IMG/VR virus record: IMGVR_UViG_3300022223_000286
Span: 1-31,221 of that record
Direction: 5' to 3' (one strand)
DNA length: 31,221 nt
Origin: a virus
Under the pieces are notes generated by a model, which saw nothing but the letters and a program-made list of their open reading frames with translations, ran no database searches and was not told the origin of the DNA. This document shows positions 3,820-29,984 of this stretch, piece after piece (positions within the stretch are counted from its first letter, which is position 1; each line of letters starts with the position of its first letter). Both the position numbers and the translations under genes were made by a program.

Positions 3820-4881
3820 ATGCTCGAATTTACCCGCCAGCAATACAACCAATTTCTCGCCGATCAGGCGCAAAACAACGGCATAGTCGACGCGACCAAA
3901 AAGTTTGCCGCGACCCCGAGCGTCGAGCAGAAGCTCGAGACGCGGATCCAGCAAAGCGCGGGATTTTTGAAGCGCGTTAACTTTATCGGCGTTAATGACC
4001 AGTCAGGGCAAAAAGTCGGGCTGTCTATCGGCTCGACCATTGCTGGCCGCACCGACACAGACACCACAGACCGCGCGACGCAGGATCCGAGCTCGCTCGA
4101 TCCGAACCAATACGATTGCAAGCAAACGAACTTCGATACACATGTAAAATACGCACTCCTCGACGCCTGGGCGAAATTCCCCGATTTTCAAATCCGGCTC
4201 CGCGATGCGCAAATGCTGCAGCAAGCGCGCGACCGGATTATGATCGGCTTTAATGGCACGAGCGCGGCCGTGCAGACCAACCGCGTCACCAATCCGCTAC
4301 TCCAGGATGTTAACGTCGGCTGGGTCGCCAAGCTGCAAGCCGAGGCTCCCGCGCGTTACCTGACCGAAGGCGGCAAGGCTGCCGGCGAGATCCGCGTCGG
4401 CGCGGGTAATGGCACGACACTCCTACCCGATTACACCAACCTCGACGCCCTGGTTTACGATATGCGCTCGAGCTTGCTCGATCCGTGGCACGCGCGGGAC
4501 AATACTTTCGTCGCGATCTGCTCGTCCGACCTGGTCGACGAAAAATATTTCCCGATGATCGAAACGTTTGCCGAGACACCAACCGAAGCCAATGCGCTCG
4601 ATTTGATGGTCTCGCACAAAAAGCTCGGCGGAGTCATGGTCGCCGAGGCGCCGTTTTTCCCGGCAAGAACGATCATGATAACGCGTCTCGGCGAGAACGA
4701 TTCGTCGAACCTGTCTATCTACTACCAGAACGGCAAGCGTCGATTGATGTATATCGACAACCCCAAGCGCGACCGAATCGAAACCTATGAAAGCGCAAAC
4801 GAGGCCTATGTTATCGAGGATCTCGGCGCGTGCTGCGTGGCGGTTAATATCAAGATCTGGGACGGTACCGCCTTTAACTAA
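3820..4881 (+). CDS. N: Major capsid protein (P2 gpN)
   Basis: This major head protein is 353 aa, the usual gpN size. In P2 about 31 N-terminal residues are removed by gpO during maturation. Family-like sequence includes MLEFTRQQYNQF at the start, QKVGLSIGSTIAGRTDT, FPDFQIRLRDA, and the C-terminal half with LDALVYDMRSSLLDPWH and RRLMYIDNPKRDRIETYES. I chose the ATG at 3820 because a GGAGAC-type ribosome-binding site precedes it by a few bases and homologues begin this way; an in-frame TTG at 3796 gives an atypical extension. The stop codon TAA overlaps the ATG of the next small ORF (TAATG), implying translational coupling. Confidence 0.95.
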   Translation: MLEFTRQQYNQFLADQAQNNGIVDATKKFAATPSVEQKLETRIQQSAGFLKRVNFIGVNDQSGQKVGLSIGSTIAGRTDTDTTDRATQDPSSLDPNQYDCKQTNFDTHVKYALLDAWAKFPDFQIRLRDAQMLQQARDRIMIGFNGTSAAVQTNRVTNPLLQDVNVGWVAKLQAEAPARYLTEGGKAAGEIRVGAGNGTTLLPDYTNLDALVYDMRSSLLDPWHARDNTFVAICSSDLVDEKYFPMIETFAETPTEANALDLMVSHKKLGGVMVAEAPFFPARTIMITRLGENDSSNLSIYYQNGKRRLMYIDNPKRDRIETYESANEAYVIEDLGACCVAVNIKIWDGTAFN

Positions 4882-5057
4882 TGCCGAACACGCCAGCAAA
4901 GCAGCACTTTAACAACACGGCCGGAACAGCTCCGGCCGGCGTTGTTAATTCTGTCGTCACGCCCGCGCGCAACCCGCGCGCCGGCGAGCTGGGTCGGTTT
5001 GTTGTGGCGCTAATCATTTTTATTGCCGGACTTGTCGTCGGGCTATTTGTGAAATAA
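4881..5057 (+). CDS. Small membrane protein sharing the gpM N-terminal signature
   Basis: This 58-aa ORF is coupled to the capsid gene by a TAATG overlap. Residues 1-10 are MPNTPAKQHF, nearly identical to the start of the following terminase subunit (MPNTPAKKHF). About 29 of the first 32 nucleotides are identical at 4881 and 5068, so this is a recent duplication. The C-terminal part (about residues 39-57, GRFVVALIIFIAGLVVGLFV) is one clear transmembrane helix. A strong hairpin is embedded in codons 10-23. I do not recognise a family. It could be a membrane-tethered copy of the gpM leader, a lysis-related protein, or a by-product of a duplication carrying a regulatory hairpin. That the frame stays open through hairpin and membrane segment supports real coding. 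Confidence 0.6.
   Translation: MPNTPAKQHFNNTAGTAPAGVVNSVVTPARNPRAGELGRFVVALIIFIAGLVVGLFVK
4909..4948 (+). terminator. Strong hairpin just after the capsid gene (terminator- or processing-like)
   Basis: The stem pairs TTAACAAC (4909-4916) with GTTGTTAA (4941-4948) and CGGCCGGA (4918-4925) with TCCGGCCG (4931-4938), with a 1x2 internal loop and the 5-nt loop ACAGC. That is 16 base pairs. No proper U-run follows, so full intrinsic termination is doubtful. Attenuation or an RNA processing/stability role for the abundant capsid mRNA is possible. It lies inside the small coupled ORF. Confidence 0.5.
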
Positions 5058-5067
5058 GGGGGCATAA

Positions 5068-5742
5068 ATGCCGAACACGCCAGCGAAAAAGCACTTTGAA
5101 CGGACGACCGCCGAACAGCAAAACAAGGAGGTCGCCGAACACGGCCGCACCCGCGCCAATGCGTCGCTCTATGAGCTGCAGCTCTTGAAAATTGCCCAGC
5201 ATCGCGGCGAGCTGCGCGCCATTAAAAGCCAGGAAAAGAAAGCCGAGCGAAAGCGTGATTTTATCGACACCTATCGCGACTATATCGACGGCGTGATCGC
5301 CTCCGATACCGGCACCGAGGACGAGGTCGTAATGACTGTTTTTGTCTGGATGATCGACGCCGGCATGATTGTCGACGCCGTGCGCCTGGCCGAGTATGCG
5401 CTAAAACATAATTTGCCAATGCCGGACAAATTCCGCCGCGATTGCGCGACCGTGCTCGCCGAGGAGATCGCCGACCATGTCTTGCGATCAAAAAATGATT
5501 TTCCGGATGTTGCGCTATTGCTCCAGGTTAAGACACTAACCGACGAGCGCGACATGCACGACCAAGTCAGGGCGAAGCTCTTTAAAGCTATCGGCGTCGC
5601 CTTTGATGCGCTCGGTAATTTTGCCGAGGCGGGCAACTATTACCGCCGGGCGCTTGAGCTGGATCCGAAAGGATCCGGCGTTAAAAAAATGATAGAGCGC
5701 GCCGACCGCGAAGCCGAGAAAGCCGGCCAGCTCGCTCGATAG
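5068..5742 (+). CDS. M: Terminase small (endonuclease) subunit (P2 gpM)
   Basis: This small terminase subunit (224 aa) works with gpP to recognise and cut cos. The N-terminal TPAKKHFERTTAEQ matches the conserved start of the gpM family (P2 gpM has SPAQRH there). The central block FIDTYRDYIDGVIASDTG, then EDEVVMTVFVWMIDAG and DAVRLAEYALKHNLPMP, are diagnostic. The C-terminus contains a TPR-like helix pair (GNFAEAGNYYRRALELDPKG). The ribosome-binding site is AAGGGGGC just upstream of the ATG. The gene is bracketed by two hairpins (4909-4948 and 5763-5810), which may lower its expression relative to the capsid gene. Two GGATCC sites occur 10 bp apart near the 3' end. Confidence 0.93.
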   Translation: MPNTPAKKHFERTTAEQQNKEVAEHGRTRANASLYELQLLKIAQHRGELRAIKSQEKKAERKRDFIDTYRDYIDGVIASDTGTEDEVVMTVFVWMIDAGMIVDAVRLAEYALKHNLPMPDKFRRDCATVLAEEIADHVLRSKNDFPDVALLLQVKTLTDERDMHDQVRAKLFKAIGVAFDALGNFAEAGNYYRRALELDPKGSGVKKMIERADREAEKAGQLAR

Positions 5743-8829: not shown

Positions 8830-9453
8830 ATGCCAGGCATGAACGAGCCAAACACTCTCGAGCTACTCCAGCGAATCGAAAACATATTGCGCCCCGGCGT
8901 TATTGCTGAGGTCGATCATAATGCCGCGCGCGCACGCGTGAATTATGGCGAGAACCCGGACGGCACGCCGGCCGCCTCCGCCTGGCTGCCCTGGTTTGCT
9001 CGCGCCGGCAACGATTCGACATGGTTTCCGCCTGAAGTCGGCGAGCAGGTTTTTATATTATCGCCTGGCGGCGAGCTCGCGCTCGGCGTGATTTTGTGCG
9101 GCCTATATCAAGACGCCAAACCCGCGCCGAGCACCGGCGCCGACATTCGCCTCGTTAAATTTTCAGACGGAAGCTTTGTCGAGTACGATCGCGCCGCCCA
9201 CAAAATGACGGCAAGCATTACCGGCGGCGACCTGGTTGCCAATGCGACCGGCAATATCGTCGCCGATGCCGGCGGCAATATCGACGCCACCGCCGGCGCC
9301 GACATTAACGCCAGCGCGACCGGCGCCGTCAACGTCACCGGCGCACAAATAAACCTGAATAACGGATCGCCGGTCGTGACTTGCGGGAATATTTGCGCAT
9401 TTCTCGGCACCAATCACCCGCACGGATCCGCAACCGTTAACGCCGAGGCTTAA
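8830..9453 (+). CDS. V: Baseplate central spike (P2 gpV)
   Basis: This is the trimeric membrane-piercing spike at the tip of the tail tube. The N-terminal OB-fold (about residues 15-100) has RPGVIAEVDHNAARARVNYG, SAWLPWFARAGNDSTWFPP and GEQVFILSPGGELALGV. A beta-helix region follows, with Gly/Asn/Ala repeats such as ATGNIVADAGGNIDATAG. The apex carries the HxH motif (NHPHGS), which in P2 gpV binds an iron ion through six histidines of the trimer. At 207 aa the length fits. Two start codons are possible, 8830 or 8839 (MNEPNTLELL), and neither has a strong ribosome-binding site. The preceding 52-bp gap (8778-8829) is where P2 has its PV promoter, but I see no clear motif there. Confidence 0.92.
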   Translation: MPGMNEPNTLELLQRIENILRPGVIAEVDHNAARARVNYGENPDGTPAASAWLPWFARAGNDSTWFPPEVGEQVFILSPGGELALGVILCGLYQDAKPAPSTGADIRLVKFSDGSFVEYDRAAHKMTASITGGDLVANATGNIVADAGGNIDATAGADINASATGAVNVTGAQINLNNGSPVVTCGNICAFLGTNHPHGSATVNAEA

Positions 9454-22644: not shown

Positions 22645-22992
22645 ATGACAAGCCCGGAAAAAATATTCGTTATCAGTACCGAGAACGAAAAACTCGTCGC
22701 GATTTGTGACAATGCCGACGCCGCCTGGGCGCTGGCGGCGTGCGTGTATGAGCAATTCGAGCTTAATCGCCTTGTTCACGATCTCGACGCCCTACCCTCG
22801 CGCGAGGAGTGTCGGCGCGTGCTGCGCAATGGCTATATAGAAGTTATGCACCGGCGCAAGCGCGGCGGCGCGGCGAAAACCTGTCGCGAATATAACCTAA
22901 CATCGGTCGGCGAAATGGTGGTCGGGATCCACCCGCACAAACTCTATAAGGGCGCGCCGAAAAACCTTATCGCGTCCGAGAGGTGGTGGTAA
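22645..22992 (+). CDS. Early protein of unknown function before the primase
   Basis: This is a 115-aa protein: MTSPEKIFVISTENEKLVAI, then a helix (AAWALAACVYEQFELNRLVH), then the basic segment REECRRVLRNGYIEVMHRRK and a Trp-rich end (SERWW). Its TAA overlaps the ATG of the primase gene, so the two are translationally coupled. It shares the CRRVL-coding 16-mer with the preceding small gene. No family is recognised; an accessory role in replication is possible from position only. Confidence 0.65.
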   Translation: MTSPEKIFVISTENEKLVAICDNADAAWALAACVYEQFELNRLVHDLDALPSREECRRVLRNGYIEVMHRRKRGGAAKTCREYNLTSVGEMVVGIHPHKLYKGAPKNLIASERWW

Positions 22993-25670
22993 TGGCTTTT
23001 GTTGAAATGGATCCCGCGAAGGCCGATCAAATCACGGCGCGACTTGTTGGCGAGTTTGGGTTTAAACATGACGCGCGCGGCTGGCTGCAGCGCGGACGCT
23101 GCCCGAGCTGCGGGAAAAACGAGCTCTATACTCGCGCGAGCGCGCCGTTTGTGATCCGTTGTAACAGGATAAATCATTGCTCATACGAACAGAAAACGCG
23201 CGAGCTCTATCCGGATTTATACGAATCATTCAATAAGCGATACAAGCCCACGCCGGCGGATCCGAACGCCACGGCCGACGCCTATATGCGCCACGCGCGC
23301 GGGTTTGATACTGACAAAATTAAAGGCTGGTATAAGCAGGGCAAATTTTGGCACCCGGACGGCGACAAGGGTACGGCGACGGTCCGATTTTACCTGGACG
23401 ACAACGCCGCGGATCCGGTTTATATGGAGCGATTTGTCGATGCCGTTACCATTACCGACCCCGAGACCGGCGAGAAAGAAACGCGCAAGGCGCACTTTAA
23501 AGGCTCGCACGGCGGGCAATGGTGGCAGCCGCCAAGCCTGGACATTGTCGAGGGCGATACAGTCTGGATCGTCGAAGGCTGTATTGATGCGATCGCGCTC
23601 AATCTTTCGGGCGTTAAAGCGGTTTCGATTCTCGCTTGCCGCAACTACCCCGAGCGGGCACTCGCTGGCTATGCCGGTAAGTCGATTAACTGGATTATGG
23701 CACTTGATAATGACGCCGCCGGCCGCAAGTTTGCACGAAAGCACGTTAAACGGATGCGCGACGCCGGCTTTGTTGTTAGCGCCGCTCAGGCGCCAGGCAA
23801 GGATAAAACAGACTGGAACGATCTCTATAAGGCCGGCAAGCTCACGCCGGCGGATCTCGGCGAATATCTCTATCATGGCGACTTGCTTATTGCCGAGTCG
23901 GCAACACAAAAGGCCTTATTAATATACAGGCACAATGGGCGACGAGAATTTTATTTTAATTATAACAAGCGGGTTTTTTGGTTTGCGCTGGATCTCGAGA
24001 AATACGATAAAGCATACAAAGAGCTCGAATCAGACAAGGCGCTCGATAAAGACGATATTCGCGAGCAGGCCATTAACAAGGCCGGCACGATTACGCCGCT
24101 CGCGAATTGCTTGTTTACTTTTCTTTATTATCAATACGCCCCGCTCACCGACGAAAGCTGGTATTACTGTCGCGTTGATTTTCCGCATGGTGCCAAATCG
24201 ATAAAAAATACTTTTACCGGCTCGCAGCTCTCGAGCCCCTCAGAATTTAAAAAGCGGTTAATAAGCATCGCCGCCGGCTCGATCTTTTCCGGCTCGCCGA
24301 TGCAGCTCGACCGCATTTTGCATGATCAACTCTACGGGATAAAAACCGTCGAAACGATCGATTATATTGGTTATTGCCCCGATCATGGCGTTTATGTATA
24401 TCCCGATATATCGGTTAAAGACGGCGAGCGCTGCGCACTCAATGACGAGGATTTTTTCGAATATAACGACCTGGCAATAAAGTCGCTATCGCGCTCGGCA
24501 GACTTGCACATCGCTAACAATCCGCGCGACTATCATGCCGAATGGATTAATGATTTATGGCGCGCGTTTGGCGCGCAAGGCATTATCGCCGCGGCGTTTT
24601 GGCTGGGCTCGTTTTTCGCTGAGCAGATCCGCGCCACGCACAAAAGCTACCCATTTATTGAAATCGTCGGCGAGCCTGGCGCCGGCAAGACGACAATCAT
24701 AGAGTTTCTCTGGAAGTGTTGCGGCCGGCTGGGGTATGAAGGTTTTGACCCCAGCAAATCAACACCGGCAGCCAGGGCGAGAAACTTCGCGCAAGTGTCA
24801 AACCTTCCCGTCGTGTTGATTGAGTCGGAGCGCGGCGCCGATGGCAAAAATCGCGGCTTTGACTGGGACGAACTTAAAACGCTTTACAATGGCCGCTCCG
24901 TGCGGGCGCGTGGCGTTAAAAACTCCGGCAATGAAACAATCGAGCCGCCGTTTCGCGGCGCGATTGTTATCAGTCAAAACGCCGAAGTCGAGGCGAGCCA
25001 GGCCATACTCGAGCGAATTGTTCATTTACGATTCACAAAAGCCAAGCAAAGCGAGCGGACGCGCGAGATCGCCGAGGCAATATCGACGATCCCCGTCGAG
25101 CGAGTGAGTTATTTTTTGCTTGATGCGATTACGCGCGAGCGCGAGATCCTGGAGGTTATCAAGCAGCGGACGCCAGAATACCGCGCAAGGCTGCACAAAC
25201 TCGCCGGCCTGAATAACGTTCGCATTGTCTTAAATCATGCCCAGCTCTGCGCCCTGGTTGATGCGCTCGCCCTGGTGTTGCCAATCGATAAGCAGGTGAT
25301 AACCGAAGTAAAGCGCGAGCTCGCCGACATGGCGCTCGCCAGGCAGCAAGCCATAAATGCCGATCACCCGCTCGTCGTGCAATTTTGGGAGACGTTTTAT
25401 TTCCTCAACGGCGACACGCACGAGCCGCGGCTCGATCATTCCAAAACACCGACCTCGATCGCGGTCAACCTCAATCACTTTGTAAAACTTGCCAGCGAGC
25501 AAAGGCAGCATATCCCCGACATTGTCGAGCTCAAGCGGCTTTTAAAGGCAAGTAAATCGCACAAATACGTCGGCCAGCGCGCAGTTAATTCGGCCTTGCT
25601 GCGCAATCATGAAGGCACCCCGAAAACTGTTAAATGCTGGATATTCGAAAACCCGGAGGCGGCGCAATGA
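22992..25670 (+). CDS. Primase-helicase (zinc finger, TOPRIM, P-loop ATPase)
   Basis: This 892-aa replication protein combines primer synthesis with a helicase-like ATPase. A zinc finger with C37, C40, C57 and C63 is followed by a TOPRIM domain with EGCIDA (E195) and the DND motif (D239-D241), then PGKDKTDWNDL. The C-terminal half has Walker A GEPGAGKTT (residues 560-568, K566) and a Walker B-like PVVLIESE, with a later motif RGAIVISQNAEV typical of phage DUF927-like or SF3-type ATPases. I chose the ATG at 22992, which overlaps the upstream stop; the GTG at 22983 is less likely. P2 itself encodes the rolling-circle endonuclease gpA instead, and nothing like gpA is seen here. Theta-type or bidirectional replication is therefore inferred. 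Confidence 0.88.
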   Translation: MAFVEMDPAKADQITARLVGEFGFKHDARGWLQRGRCPSCGKNELYTRASAPFVIRCNRINHCSYEQKTRELYPDLYESFNKRYKPTPADPNATADAYMRHARGFDTDKIKGWYKQGKFWHPDGDKGTATVRFYLDDNAADPVYMERFVDAVTITDPETGEKETRKAHFKGSHGGQWWQPPSLDIVEGDTVWIVEGCIDAIALNLSGVKAVSILACRNYPERALAGYAGKSINWIMALDNDAAGRKFARKHVKRMRDAGFVVSAAQAPGKDKTDWNDLYKAGKLTPADLGEYLYHGDLLIAESATQKALLIYRHNGRREFYFNYNKRVFWFALDLEKYDKAYKELESDKALDKDDIREQAINKAGTITPLANCLFTFLYYQYAPLTDESWYYCRVDFPHGAKSIKNTFTGSQLSSPSEFKKRLISIAAGSIFSGSPMQLDRILHDQLYGIKTVETIDYIGYCPDHGVYVYPDISVKDGERCALNDEDFFEYNDLAIKSLSRSADLHIANNPRDYHAEWINDLWRAFGAQGIIAAAFWLGSFFAEQIRATHKSYPFIEIVGEPGAGKTTIIEFLWKCCGRLGYEGFDPSKSTPAARARNFAQVSNLPVVLIESERGADGKNRGFDWDELKTLYNGRSVRARGVKNSGNETIEPPFRGAIVISQNAEVEASQAILERIVHLRFTKAKQSERTREIAEAISTIPVERVSYFLLDAITREREILEVIKQRTPEYRARLHKLAGLNNVRIVLNHAQLCALVDALALVLPIDKQVITEVKRELADMALARQQAINADHPLVVQFWETFYFLNGDTHEPRLDHSKTPTSIAVNLNHFVKLASEQRQHIPDIVELKRLLKASKSHKYVGQRAVNSALLRNHEGTPKTVKCWIFENPEAAQ

Positions 25671-25975
25671 GCAACACAACGGGCGGGCGCTTGGCGCGCT
25701 GTATGGTTTGCAACTGCCCGGAGCGGGCAACAAAGCGCGCGCAGCTTCATATTTACCCCCGGCGCGGGGCGCTGCCTATTGTCGGCATGACGCCGATTGT
25801 CGTATGCGGCAAGCACGCCGACGACGAGCACGGTCGCAGGCTGTTAACCGATAACGCGGCCGGCTGGGAGTGTCTCTCGGCCGCGCTTTTTCCTCTTGAG
25901 CTGGATCGCGAGCGGTCTCGGGTTAAGTGGGTCGACTTGATTGTGCCGGAGGGTTTTTACCGTGGCAGCAACTAA
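25667..25975 (+). CDS. Small Cys-rich protein following the primase
   Basis: This 102-aa product overlaps the primase stop (ATGA) and has GGAGG 7 bases upstream of its ATG. The N-terminal half contains C-x2-C-x-C (RCMVCNCPE) and, about 35 residues later, VVCGKH, which could bind zinc. The C-terminal half ends VKWVDLIVPEGFYRGSN. No family is recognised. It is not a match to Ogr/Delta, which has a different Cys spacing. Confidence 0.7.
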   Translation: MSNTTGGRLARCMVCNCPERATKRAQLHIYPRRGALPIVGMTPIVVCGKHADDEHGRRLLTDNAAGWECLSAALFPLELDRERSRVKWVDLIVPEGFYRGSN

Positions 25976-26282
25976 AGACACCAAAGAAAACGCCGAGCGC
26001 GAGGTTTGTTGTCTTGTTCGTGACCCGCACGCCTGGGCGCCCGATAGCCGGCACAAAACCCGCAGCGCGCCGACAATGCTCAGGCTTGACCGCCTACCGA
26101 AAGCGAGTCGCGAGGCGCTCTGGAACGGAATCCAGGAACAGGCGCCCGAGCTGGCGGATCTCATGGCAAACGATCCCAACGTCGCGGCGCTGCGTGAAAT
26201 GTTCGGGGCGCAATACCTACTCCCCGAGGAGCGCGTCGACGCCCTCCTCGCATTGCAAAAAAAAGAGGTCATTAATGATTAA
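25962..26282 (+). CDS. Small early protein, GTG start, unknown function
   Basis: The 106-aa product is read from a GTG at 25962, chosen because GGAGG lies 9 bases upstream and an earlier TTG lacks a site. The sequence (LRLDRLPKASREALWNGIQE, LADLMANDPNVAALREMFGA, QYLLPEERVDALLALQKK) is helical and acidic to neutral. It overlaps genes on both sides, as is usual in this operon. No family is recognised. Confidence 0.65.
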   Translation: MAATKDTKENAEREVCCLVRDPHAWAPDSRHKTRSAPTMLRLDRLPKASREALWNGIQEQAPELADLMANDPNVAALREMFGAQYLLPEERVDALLALQKKEVIND

Positions 26283-27183
26283 TGCGCGAATCCCTTTTCG
26301 GCATATGTTGGCGATACTGGTCGCGACACTATTAACCCAATGGCACGGCATTAAATTTTGGTCGGGGCTTGTTGGCACCGAGACCGGCTGGGCCTGGTCG
26401 CTCGCGCTCGAGGGCGCGGCGCTTTGGCTTTGGGCGCACCGGGAGCGCCGCCGCGTGTTCGCGGTTATTGCGTCCGGCTTGTTGTTGGCCGGCCCGTTGT
26501 TTCACATCGCCGAGCCGTTGATTGTCGCGGCCGAAACCGCCGAAACAGCAAGTCGAAATCGTGCGCAATCGATCGAAATCACGAGAGCGGAAATCGAAAC
26601 GCTCGAGGCCGCGCTCGCGCGTTCGCTGGCTAATTCGGCGGCGCGCCTGGGCTGGCTGGGCGATATCCAGGCAAGCAAAGCCGAGCTATCCACCGCCCGG
26701 GCAAGGTTGCGCGATCTCGTGAGCGCTCAGGCGCCGAGCGTCGGCTTTTGGGCGGCGGCGCGCGTCATTATGCAGGCGCTCGCCCTGGTTATTGTTTGGC
26801 TTGTGTCGGTGATGGCAATTATCGAAATAACGAAACCGTCGGCCGGCGTTTCGACACAAGCCGGAAACACGGCACCGGCCCGGCCGGCGGCGGCGAAATC
26901 TGCGATCACTGTTTCGAAATCCGCCAGGCCGCCCGAAGCCGACGAGCTGGTCGCCCTGGCGGAGCTTTCCTCGCGCGCCCTCGACGCGCTACTCGCTAAC
27001 AAGGGGATTACTCAAGGAGAATGGTCCGAGCAAAAAGGCCTCTCGCCGAAAAACGTTTCGCTTGTCAAAAACCACGCCCAGCGCAAAGCAGAAGGCAAAG
27101 AGGTCGCCAGCGAGGCGACGATCCGCCGAGTCGCGGCGGCCCTGGGTGTTTCTGTTGTCAACAAACCGGAGGGCGATCAATGA
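26275..27183 (+). CDS. Membrane-anchored protein with C-terminal HTH-like domain
   Basis: This 302-aa protein has an unusual architecture. Hydrophobic helices lie at about residues 10-21, 39-54, 61-85 and 160-184. A periplasmic or cytoplasmic coiled coil (88-150, rich in A/E/R/L) sits between helices 3 and 4, and an Ala/Pro-rich linker follows (186-222). The soluble C-terminal domain (223-296) reads ALLANKGITQGEWSEQKGLS then ATIRRVAAALGVSVV, which looks like a helix-turn-helix. The ATG at 26275 has GAGG 6 bases upstream; the longer open frame from 25927 only shadows two other genes. Function is unknown. A membrane-tethered DNA-binding or sensor protein is inferred. Confidence 0.75.
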   Translation: MINARIPFRHMLAILVATLLTQWHGIKFWSGLVGTETGWAWSLALEGAALWLWAHRERRRVFAVIASGLLLAGPLFHIAEPLIVAAETAETASRNRAQSIEITRAEIETLEAALARSLANSAARLGWLGDIQASKAELSTARARLRDLVSAQAPSVGFWAAARVIMQALALVIVWLVSVMAIIEITKPSAGVSTQAGNTAPARPAAAKSAITVSKSARPPEADELVALAELSSRALDALLANKGITQGEWSEQKGLSPKNVSLVKNHAQRKAEGKEVASEATIRRVAAALGVSVVNKPEGDQ

Positions 27184-27569
27184 GCCGCCATAATCGATAT
27201 ATCAGCAAGCAATCAACAATCCGCGCCACGATCGCCACGACGGCGCGGTTTGTCTTTCAAGGCGCGGCGCACCAATTCACGCCGGAGCAACTGCGCACAA
27301 TGGCAAAAACCGCAGTCGGCGCGCCGATCGAGGTCGATTTTTCGCCGATGCACAAGGTCGGACGCGTTACCTCGGCGCATGTGACTCGCGATAATGTGTT
27401 GCGCATCGAGGCAAGGGTCGAGGCTCAGGCAGTCGAGAGCCCGCAGTCGTGGCGACTGGTCGTCGGCTGGCTGCCCGAGGATGGCTCGCTCGTCTCTGTC
27501 GGCCTGGTTAAAACCTGGGTCGACCCGAACTTGCCGCCGGCCGAAGTGATAAGCGAGGTCGAAGCATGA
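27180..27569 (+). CDS. Unknown protein between membrane-HTH and HerA genes
   Basis: This 129-aa protein starts at the ATG overlapping the upstream TGA, with GGAGG about 8 bases before. The N-terminal half (RATIATTARFVFQGAAHQFT, PEQLRTMAKTAVGAPIEVDF) and the beta segment HKVGRVTSAHVTRDNVLRIE loosely resemble prohead-protease-like beta domains, but no catalytic residues are evident. I would not assign a function. It belongs to the tightly coupled distal early operon. Confidence 0.65.
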   Translation: MSRHNRYISKQSTIRATIATTARFVFQGAAHQFTPEQLRTMAKTAVGAPIEVDFSPMHKVGRVTSAHVTRDNVLRIEARVEAQAVESPQSWRLVVGWLPEDGSLVSVGLVKTWVDPNLPPAEVISEVEA

Positions 27570-27853
27570 GCGCGCGACAAGATCAATCGATTAGCGTTGA
27601 GCAGCTGGACGCATTTTTAACCGACCAAGCCGACGACCTGGGCATGTCACGCCCCAGGCTGGGCGAGTTATTGCTCGTCGAGGCGCGGTCGCTTTTGGAT
27701 ATCCCCGCGGATCTGGCCGGCCGACTGGTTACGGATATTCATTTAAACACCTACGTCGACGACAAGGCCTGGCAGGTCTCAAGCGATCCGGCGATCGGGA
27801 CGCTAATCGACGCCGCGAACTTGTTACGATCGGGCGAGTTTATCAAGGTTTGA
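27566..27853 (+). CDS. Small acidic early protein, unknown function
   Basis: This 95-aa acidic and helical protein (SISVEQLDAFLTDQADDLGM, RPRLGELLLVEARSLLDIPA) overlaps the upstream gene by 4 bases. The tail TLIDAANLLRSGEFIKV is followed after 20 bases by the HerA-like ATPase ATG. Its adjacency to the ATPase suggests a partner or adaptor, which is inference. Confidence 0.65.
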   Translation: MSARQDQSISVEQLDAFLTDQADDLGMSRPRLGELLLVEARSLLDIPADLAGRLVTDIHLNTYVDDKAWQVSSDPAIGTLIDAANLLRSGEFIKV

Positions 27854-27873
27854 GTTTTGCAAAGGGGGCAACA

Positions 27874-29484
27874 ATGAAACAAACAACACTCGGAAAAAGC
27901 CTGAAGGGTAACGTCGACGTCGACGTGATAAAACTCCTCGAAACGCGTCTATTGATCCAGGCCAACTCGGGCGGCGGCAAGTCCTGGGCGTTGCGCCGGT
28001 TAATGGAAATCACCGCCGGCCAGGTGCAACACATTATCATCGATCCCGAGGGCGAGTTTTCCACGTTGCGCGAAAAATTCGATTACATAATCGCCGCACC
28101 GCACGACGGCGACGCCCTGGCGCACCCGCGAACCGCTAAGCTACTCGCGCGGCGATTGCTCGAGACCGGCGCCTCGGCGATTTGTGACATCTACGACCTA
28201 AAGGCTCACGAGCGAATCGCGTTTGTTAAGCTGTTTCTCGACGCCCTGGTTAATGCGCCTAAAAACTTATGGCGCCCTGTTTTGATTGTGCTCGACGAGG
28301 CGCACATTTTCGCGCCTGAAAAGGGCAAGGCCGAAAGTCTCGGCGCGGTAATCGACGTCGCCACGCGCGGCCGGAAGCGCGGCCAATGTTTAATTCCGGC
28401 AACTCAGCGGCTCGCAAAACTGCACAAAGACGTCGCCGCCGAGTGTATTAACAAATTGATCGGCCGCACCGGGCTCGACGTTGATGTTAAGCGCGCCGCC
28501 GACGAGCTCGGCCTAACGGCTAAAGAGGCGGTCCAGGCGTTGAGGTCGCTCGAGCCTGGCGCGTTTTTCGCCTTTGGGCCGGCGATCTCTCAAACTGTGA
28601 TTAAAACAACGGTCGGGCCTGTTGCGACAACACACCCGAAGGCCGGCGGTCGTCTGTTGGCGAAGCCGCCCGCGCCGTCGGCAAGGGTAAAGACGATCCT
28701 CGCCAAGCTTGGAGATCTACCCAAAGAGGCCGAGGCGGAGGCTAAAACCACGCAAGAGCTAAAAAAAGAGATCTCCAGGCTAAAGGCTGAGCTCACGATT
28801 GCCACGAAACAACGGCCCGGCATAAGCGAGGCGGATTGTTTAAAGCGAATCAAGGCGGCGCCGGCGACTGTTGTGTCGACAGCCTCGAGCCACGAGCGGG
28901 AATTGCTCGCCATTAAAAAGATCGTCGACAAGGCGCTCGGCAAATCAGCGCCGGCGACTGGTAGCCCGCAAACCGCGCGCGCGACGACTGCGCCGGCGGA
29001 CGATGCCTCGATTCGGCCTGGCGCGAAAAAGATCCTCGGCGCTCTGGCTGCGCGCTACCCGGCAAAGTACACGCGCGCCCAGGTGGCAACGCTGACCGGC
29101 TTTTCGCCCAGGGGCGGCACGTTTGGGACTTACCTTAGCAATTTGAGGGTCGCCGGTTTTATCGCTGGCGATAATAGCGAACTACAGGCAACCGAGGCCG
29201 GTATAAAAGAGCTTGGCGGCGAGATCCCGGAGGCGCCAAAGACTCGCGACGAGATTATGCAGCAATGGCGGCGGGCGTTAAGGCCTGGCGCGTTTCGGAT
29301 CCTCGAGGTCGTTGTCGATGCCGGCGAGGCCGGGATCTCTCGTCAAGACGTCGCCGAGCTTGTTGGCATGGTCTCGACCGGCGGCACGTTTGGGACTTAC
29401 CTCAGCAACTTGAACACGAACGGGCTAATTAAAAACAACGCCGGCACGTTAACCGCGAGCGACTTACTACTCGAGACCAGTTAG
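27874..29484 (+). CDS. HerA/FtsK-like ATPase with duplicated C-terminal winged-helix-like domain
   Basis: This 536-aa protein has a HerA/DUF87-type motor domain. Walker A is NSGGGKSW (31-38, K36), after the IDPEGE-type block (HIIIDPEGEFSTLREKF); Walker B is VLIVLDEAHIF (D141, E142), and TRGRKRGQCLIPATQRLA follows as the sensor/arginine region. A coiled coil (about 290-320) leads to two copies of a domain: RPGAKKILGALAARYPAK (from 381) and RPGAFRILEVVVDAGEA (from about 470). Each contains GGTFGTYLSNL (414-424 and 503-513) and looks winged-helix. I use the ATG at 27874, preceded by AAGGGGG. HerA usually pairs with NurA nuclease; none is seen here. It is the last gene of the early operon. Confidence 0.82.
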   Translation: MKQTTLGKSLKGNVDVDVIKLLETRLLIQANSGGGKSWALRRLMEITAGQVQHIIIDPEGEFSTLREKFDYIIAAPHDGDALAHPRTAKLLARRLLETGASAICDIYDLKAHERIAFVKLFLDALVNAPKNLWRPVLIVLDEAHIFAPEKGKAESLGAVIDVATRGRKRGQCLIPATQRLAKLHKDVAAECINKLIGRTGLDVDVKRAADELGLTAKEAVQALRSLEPGAFFAFGPAISQTVIKTTVGPVATTHPKAGGRLLAKPPAPSARVKTILAKLGDLPKEAEAEAKTTQELKKEISRLKAELTIATKQRPGISEADCLKRIKAAPATVVSTASSHERELLAIKKIVDKALGKSAPATGSPQTARATTAPADDASIRPGAKKILGALAARYPAKYTRAQVATLTGFSPRGGTFGTYLSNLRVAGFIAGDNSELQATEAGIKELGGEIPEAPKTRDEIMQQWRRALRPGAFRILEVVVDAGEAGISRQDVAELVGMVSTGGTFGTYLSNLNTNGLIKNNAGTLTASDLLLETS

Positions 29485-29522: not shown

Positions 29523-29984
29523 TTAACGGCCTCCAGGACAATCGGCCCGCCCCAGCTCGCGGCGGGCCTTATCATTGGCACTCAAAATATGTACGACTCC
29601 CCCTTTTATCCCCGCATCCGTGAGCAGCGAGCACAAATAACCGGCAAACCCATCGCGGCGCGTTGAATCATCAACAACACCGGCGAGCAGGGTCGGCCGA
29701 GTATCGTCTCCCCAGGTTGCGTCTATTATTTTCTTTTCCTGTTTTACAAGCAGCAGCGCATGAGCGAGCGCTCTCGCGTCCGCCGGCGCCGAGGCTTGCG
29801 CCTTTGGTGCTGGTTTGTCGTCAAGCAATGAAGCAATAAGAAAAAAGAAAATAACACCAATAACGAGCAAGCCGGCCGCGAGCTCTTTCTTTTTTTTGCC
29901 CGGGCCGGCGGCGCCGCAAGCCGGACAGGTTTCGGCGAGCGCGTCGATGGCTCCGCCGCAGGATTGACAATTCTTTAAAGGCAT
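29523..29984 (-). CDS. Zinc-ribbon membrane protein, probable moron
   Basis: This 153-aa protein has an N-terminal zinc ribbon with C6, C9, C20 and C23 (NCQSCGGAIDALAETCPACG), a Lys-rich stop-transfer, and a strong transmembrane helix at about 37-55 (LAAGLLVIGVIFFFLIASLL). The C-terminal soluble domain of about 90 residues has two cysteines (GYLCSLLTDAGI, GRADCPG). The start was chosen at 29984, where GGGAG/GAGGG lies upstream; a longer upstream frame runs into the integrase. It is transcribed against the early operon, next to the integrase, a usual site for lysogenic-conversion genes. Function is unknown; expression from the prophage is inferred. Confidence 0.78.
   Translation of the reverse strand: MPLKNCQSCGGAIDALAETCPACGAAGPGKKKKELAAGLLVIGVIFFFLIASLLDDKPAPKAQASAPADARALAHALLLVKQEKKIIDATWGDDTRPTLLAGVVDDSTRRDGFAGYLCSLLTDAGIKGGVVHILSANDKARRELGRADCPGGR

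Follow-up and report, generated by a model that had tools for sequence, protein, structure and literature searches.

Which function should be assigned to a phage ATPase of the DNA-motor type whose C-terminus carries the same short motif twice? This question is raised by the 31,221-nucleotide stretch of IMG/VR virus record IMGVR_UViG_3300022223_000286 (positions 1 to 31,221, i.e., the window), where a HerA/FtsK-type ATPase of 536 amino acids (27874–29484, + strand) ends in a twin winged-helix tail, with GGTFGTYLSNL at residues 414–424 (29113–29145, +) and again at residues 503–513 (29380–29412, +). These positions had been given exactly in the original prediction, which was made from the sequence alone and took the ATPase as part of a four-gene membrane system. 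Here, the ATPase appears to be a motor aimed at a changeable DNA sequence, and it is probably a minimal FtsK/HerA pump for double-stranded DNA that is directed by two exchangeable DNA readers displaying the same surface.

The motor domain comprises residues 1–250 (27874–28623, +) and contains the Walker A motif SGGGKS (32–37), DPEGE (57–61), the Walker B motif LDEAH (140–144), RGRKRG (165–170) and TQR (177–179), of which Walker A, Walker B and the C-terminal Q/arginine motifs form invariant columns over 71 sequences. The structure of the ATPase was predicted as a monomer by AlphaFold2 from 71 sequences, with a mean pLDDT (predicted local distance difference test) of 91.5. In this model, the motor starts nearly at the N-terminus, since the P-loop (32–37) is preceded by a β-hairpin and one helix only, the short hairpin standing in place of a HAS barrel. 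Sequence matches to HerA were found in Pfam (DUF87, E = 1.5e-7) and among the HerA chains of the PDB (E = 9e-7), and the best PDB matches by Foldseek are HerA hexamers (E ~ 1e-12; 4d2i, 9x1m, 8xau, HerA-DUF4297), in agreement with the HerA-like DNA motor proposed earlier. The motifs and the predicted HerA-type fold are those expected of a member of the FtsK-HerA superfamily. However, the protein scores only 38.4 bits against the NCBIfam HerA equivalog, the cut-off of which is 970, and it differs from the HerA of HerA–NurA DNA-end resection, with which it shares the motor core (Pfam DUF87; Foldseek 4d2i and 9x1m), in lacking the N-terminal HAS barrel and a NurA partner and in possessing an added stalk and twin tail. 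The absence of NurA was correctly noted at the outset, as PF09376 is missing from the whole genome of the window but was detected in 7 of 14 control genomes.

The stalk, helical or coiled-coil (residues ~270–356), and a disordered linker (357–376), together at 28681–29016 (+), lead to the two winged helices, both of which are modelled as winged helix–turn–helix domains with pLDDT > 90, so that the winged-helix-like tails first read from the sequence hold up as predicted folds. Winged helix 1 (residues ~382–450; 29017–29223, +) consists of helices 382–392, 401–408 and 415–426 and a wing at 430–439, and winged helix 2 (~466–533; 29269–29472, +) consists of helices 471–486, 490–497 and 504–515 and a wing at 519–528. 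In both, the recognition helix (415–426 and 504–515) begins with the repeated motif. The tail profile matches just generic winged helices in Pfam and the PDB, and when 397 other genomes of the same phylum were searched with it, no copies of the tail were found at E ≤ 1e-8. A phage HerA with twin winged helices was not described in any of the openly licensed papers searched.

A pattern scan of IMG/VR gave 165 relatives of the ATPase, 80 of which were fetched, and the two recognition helices were compared within and between proteins for 77 relatives. Over motif columns 33–42, identity averages 0.88 within a protein vs. 0.29 between proteins, and the two copies are at least 80% identical in 70 of the 77 proteins. 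Column by column, most motif positions show 0.86–1.00 within vs. 0.16–0.50 between proteins (z 9–21, maximum 20.6). Thus, the pair in the window (GGTFGTYLSNL twice) is replaced elsewhere by RSSRDTYLQRL, GGTFNTYLQEL or NGHVNNTLG, each again present twice, and because the motif is kept as a matched pair in the 77 relatives, its repetition is far beyond chance. Weaker matching was also seen at the N-terminus of helix 1, two positions of helix 2, the turn and the wing, and none at most other exposed winged-helix positions in these 77 relatives. The matched columns would thereby outline the face by which a winged helix is predicted to contact DNA.

Matching of this kind could arise by gene conversion or recent duplication, which was rejected for the family as a whole by the codons used: synonymous codons at the matched positions agree in 337 of 742 cases, with 328 expected from codon usage (0.45 vs. 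0.44). The codon agreement is no higher than expected, suggesting that selection on the protein keeps the two readers alike; on the aligned sequences, the paired readers are best explained as maintained by selection on protein rather than by gene conversion. In close pairs with conserved tails, single residues have also changed in parallel, for example with A replaced by G in the two copies (L053/L062) or T by Q (L018/L020, again in the two copies). Matched, exchangeable recognition helices are a property of the ATPase that lay outside the interpretation of the original prediction.

The exchange is most evident in three pairs of relatives, namely L039/L043 (motors 99% identical, tails 20%), L039/L064 (97% and 28%) and L045/L054 (96% and 33%). 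The nearly identical motors of L039, L043 and L064 carry three different matched pairs (RSSRDTY, GGRFLSD and SKGFANA, respectively), and over all pairs of proteins the identities of motor and tail are essentially uncorrelated (Spearman 0.04). At the DNA level, L039 and L043 have common flanking genes, and their similarity ends inside the stalk region and returns 3′ of the ATPase gene. Judged from these alignments, the putative reading end is swapped as a unit onto a nearly unchanged motor. The terminase gene farther along is conserved between L039 and L043 despite the swapped tail, which argues against the ATPase being a packaging ATPase or terminase, as might be proposed from the match of PHROG 2666 (labelled terminase large subunit) to the motor and from a fold match to the STIV2 B204 packaging ATPase. 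Since the prophage in the window also has its own separate TerL, TerS and portal genes, we regard a packaging role as extremely improbable.

Several observations weigh against two matched readers of a DNA site. Of the 11 codons in each of the window's own two motif copies, 9 are identical vs. 5.0 expected, which may reflect local history, i.e., a recent local conversion. In 24 sister pairs, 91 of 123 differences in the motif appear in matched form in the two copies, vs. 20 of 482 in the rest of the domain, but many of these differences stem from one exchange event and the counts are not independent substitutions. In addition, no target site emerged from the relatives, which were searched to at most ~10 kb either side of the ATPase, a search that degenerate sites would escape. 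No over-represented 6–8-mers track the recognition-helix group; clustered repeats occur in some loci but without correspondence to helix type; and short noncoding islands common to same-helix groups yielded no site. Comparing k-mer content between closely related phages whose tails had been exchanged gave no site either, nor did half-site pairs of 6 bp, direct or inverted, when the groups were set against permuted labels.

The failure to find a DNA site in the phages would be expected if the matched helices were protein-docking surfaces that both contact one phage-specific protein or, across the ring, one another, and that have to match because the partner is repeated or symmetric. Some winged helices do bind proteins. 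However, the matched columns coincide with the surface by which winged helices canonically contact DNA (recognition helix, start of helix 2 and wing), other exposed surfaces are for the most part free of them, and a conserved partner gene near the ATPase was not found in the loci compared. Docking is therefore considered unlikely.

A role in conflict, in which host or competitor DNA would be the target of the pump and an arms race would lie behind the exchange of tails, appears a little more plausible, although still doubtful. It would account for the diverse tails on near-identical motors as well as the failure to find a self-site, and the motor is matched by the PADLOC models for HerA (1.4e-11) and mad8 (5e-10). 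The anti-phage HerA proteins (SIR2-HerA, DUF4297-HerA and MADS mad8) share the motor core with the ATPase, and fast-evolving winged helix–turn–helix domains in BREX/HerA defence ATPases have been proposed to recognise invaders (PMC12839542). Against this role, the ATPase gene is not flanked by an effector gene such as a nuclease, SIR2 or DUF4297, it lies within the phage replication operon, and its neighbours of 129 and 95 amino acids match no family. Furthermore, the structural matches to the anti-phage proteins span the motor, and the twin tail is an extra feature of the ATPase here.

The preferred reading, i.e., a pump addressed to a DNA sequence, draws on what is known of related motors. 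FtsK and SpoIIIE are pumps aimed by a C-terminal gamma winged helix that reads KOPS or SRS. The ATPase here differs from them in having no membrane domain and in carrying a double, matched reader of highly variable specificity. Such C-terminally aimed pumps, taken together with two identical readers and their modular exchange, suggest a sequence-addressed pump. Streptomyces TraB, an FtsK-type ATPase for plasmid transfer, reads 8-bp TRS repeats at clt (PMC4170104, PMC5365140). It resembles the ATPase in combining a motor of the same superfamily with a winged helix C-terminal to it, and its recognition domain is specific to its own element. In contrast to TraB, the gene here belongs to phages and plasmids, each subunit has two identical readers rather than one, and no clt/TRS array was detected within the distance searched. 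Conserved Spd genes are also absent, and neither a homologue nor a membrane protein of the same architecture occurs in the ATPase loci. TdtA of Thermus ICEth1, which also belongs to a mobile element, is a hexameric DNA pump of the HerA-like type; it works with NurA as its partner, and no DNA-binding domain has been detected in it (PMC5365140), whereas the ATPase here has putative readers in its tail and no NurA.

Based on these comparisons, each subunit of a hexamer would bear two C-terminal winged helices sharing one DNA-reading surface and would read one short half-site twice, in direct or inverted orientation. The doubled reading would load or orient the pump at a particular sequence. Selection would hold the two readers alike, and specificity would differ greatly from phage to phage, in many cases because the tail is exchanged as a whole. 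Because the ATPase ends an early operon that includes a primase, we infer that the pump would handle phage DNA once replication begins, just as we infer the hexamer, translocation and DNA (rather than protein) as the ligand. The broader proposal, which we put forward tentatively and at somewhat less than even probability, is that phages and some plasmids share a pump family with an exchangeable twin-reader tail, the pair being matched by selection, its specificity diversified by cassette exchange and the pump thus readily retargeted. If this is true, many natural experiments link the sequence of a recognition helix to a DNA site within one scaffold, and decoding a few tails would yield a helix-to-site code. 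The matched pair is an unusual natural control in this respect, as specificity is reported twice per protein. Such decoding would also explain a common phage gene that is usually annotated just as "HerA-like", and whether phages aim pumps at themselves, the host or competitors would become testable.

Repeats were also observed in several phages that carry the ATPase gene. In L057, an iteron-like array of AAACGGTCAGGGGTC (three direct copies and one inverted, 8930–9007) lies ~1 kb upstream of the gene and is possibly a replication origin or the site of the reader. Other iteron-like arrays in ATPase phages are located at varying distance from the gene, at L036:9087–9192 (CCTACAACA) and L029:1708–1796 (TTTTTGTCCGGTG), and also at L083:1635–2060 (AAGTGCGAAGTGACT) and L062:17525–17741 (AAAAAGTGTGGGACT). 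A dyad common to L022 and L034 was rejected as a site, being a partly shared stem in otherwise homologous flanks that is missing from L032.

The window itself is a P2-like prophage with genes for a portal, terminase, scaffold, major head protein, sheath and tape measure, followed by a repressor/CII region, the early operon with the primase and, beyond the operon end, an integrase. The primase (895 amino acids, 22983–25670, phrog_1139 match) is located upstream of the ATPase in the same operon, and the relatives compared showed no primase homologue in the vicinity of the ATPase. The four tightly coupled open reading frames reported at 26275–29484 are all present with their overlaps: the first and second (26275–27183 and 27180–27569) share an ATGA overlap, as do the second and third (27180–27569 and 27566–27853), and the ATPase frame begins 20 bases past the third with its own AAAGGGGG ribosome-binding site, a longer version from TTG at 27850 being a less likely start. 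The same overlap pattern extends 5′ from 26275 through two small genes (25962–26282 and 25667–25975) into the primase, and 26275 is therefore no natural cassette start. Rather than forming a cassette of their own, the four genes make up the distal part of a longer early operon of overlapping genes.

The first of these genes (26275–27183, +) encodes an orphan membrane protein with hydrophobic stretches at residues ~2–20, 60–87 and 154–192, a helical segment between them and a weak C-terminal helix–turn–helix (239–270). Its proposed membrane character is consistent with the hydrophobic helices, but the DNA-binding-like domain is weakly backed (NCBIfam BcepMu gp16, E = 0.008, below cut-off), and the single-sequence fold is too poor for use (pLDDT 49). 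No relatives of this protein were found in 50,697 phage records or in IMG/VR, and only one weak match across 56 related genomes. The orphan proteins of 129 (27180–27569, +) and 95 amino acids (27566–27853, +) gave a single weak partial match and no match in IMG/VR, respectively. Across 82 ATPase loci compared by neighbourhood, detectable homologues of these three genes occur in none, and no membrane protein with an architecture like that of 26275–27183 was found, showing that the ATPase travels alone. The tight overlaps, and the action of TraB with the membrane DNA-binding protein SpdB2 (PMC4170104), are what a membrane-anchored segregation or exclusion system of four genes would lead one to expect. 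Given the 82 loci and an operon start upstream of 26275, this system, the central proposal of the original prediction, is highly improbable: the ATPase occurs independently, an outcome that the original prediction itself had named as refuting it, and the other three are essentially without relatives in the collections searched. They are best read as operon passengers rather than obligate partners of the ATPase.

The genes flanking the ATPase are highly varied across the 82 loci. The commonest neighbour is a DUF5131-like protein (14 loci, the label having been read from sequence and not from a family search), the gene of which lies within ~1.8 kb of the ATPase in at least 10 phages (L005, L007, L029, L034, L047, L069, L070, L071, L073 and L086) and is far from universal. 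A ParB-like protein is nearby in 12–13 loci, and the member in L039 is ParB_N plus HTH_ParB by Pfam. Further relatives were found in a Rhodanobacter genome, on plasmids, of which those of Mycolicibacterium and Clavibacter (pCSL1) are twin-tailed, and in a phage record that labels the protein "hera helicase". In a Sphingobium replicon (L100:5986–7440), ppc and a phosphatase gene flank a motor relative (~42% identical) without the twin winged-helix tail, which is apparently a domesticated or ancestral cellular version.

Two further features of the window were observed. A zinc-ribbon protein with one hydrophobic stretch (29523–29984, −; phrog_7191 and phrog_38187) is encoded between the ATPase and the integrase, and a 44-nt direct repeat, 80% identical, is present at 4880–4923 and 5067–5110, in the region where the major head gene ends and that for the terminase small subunit begins.

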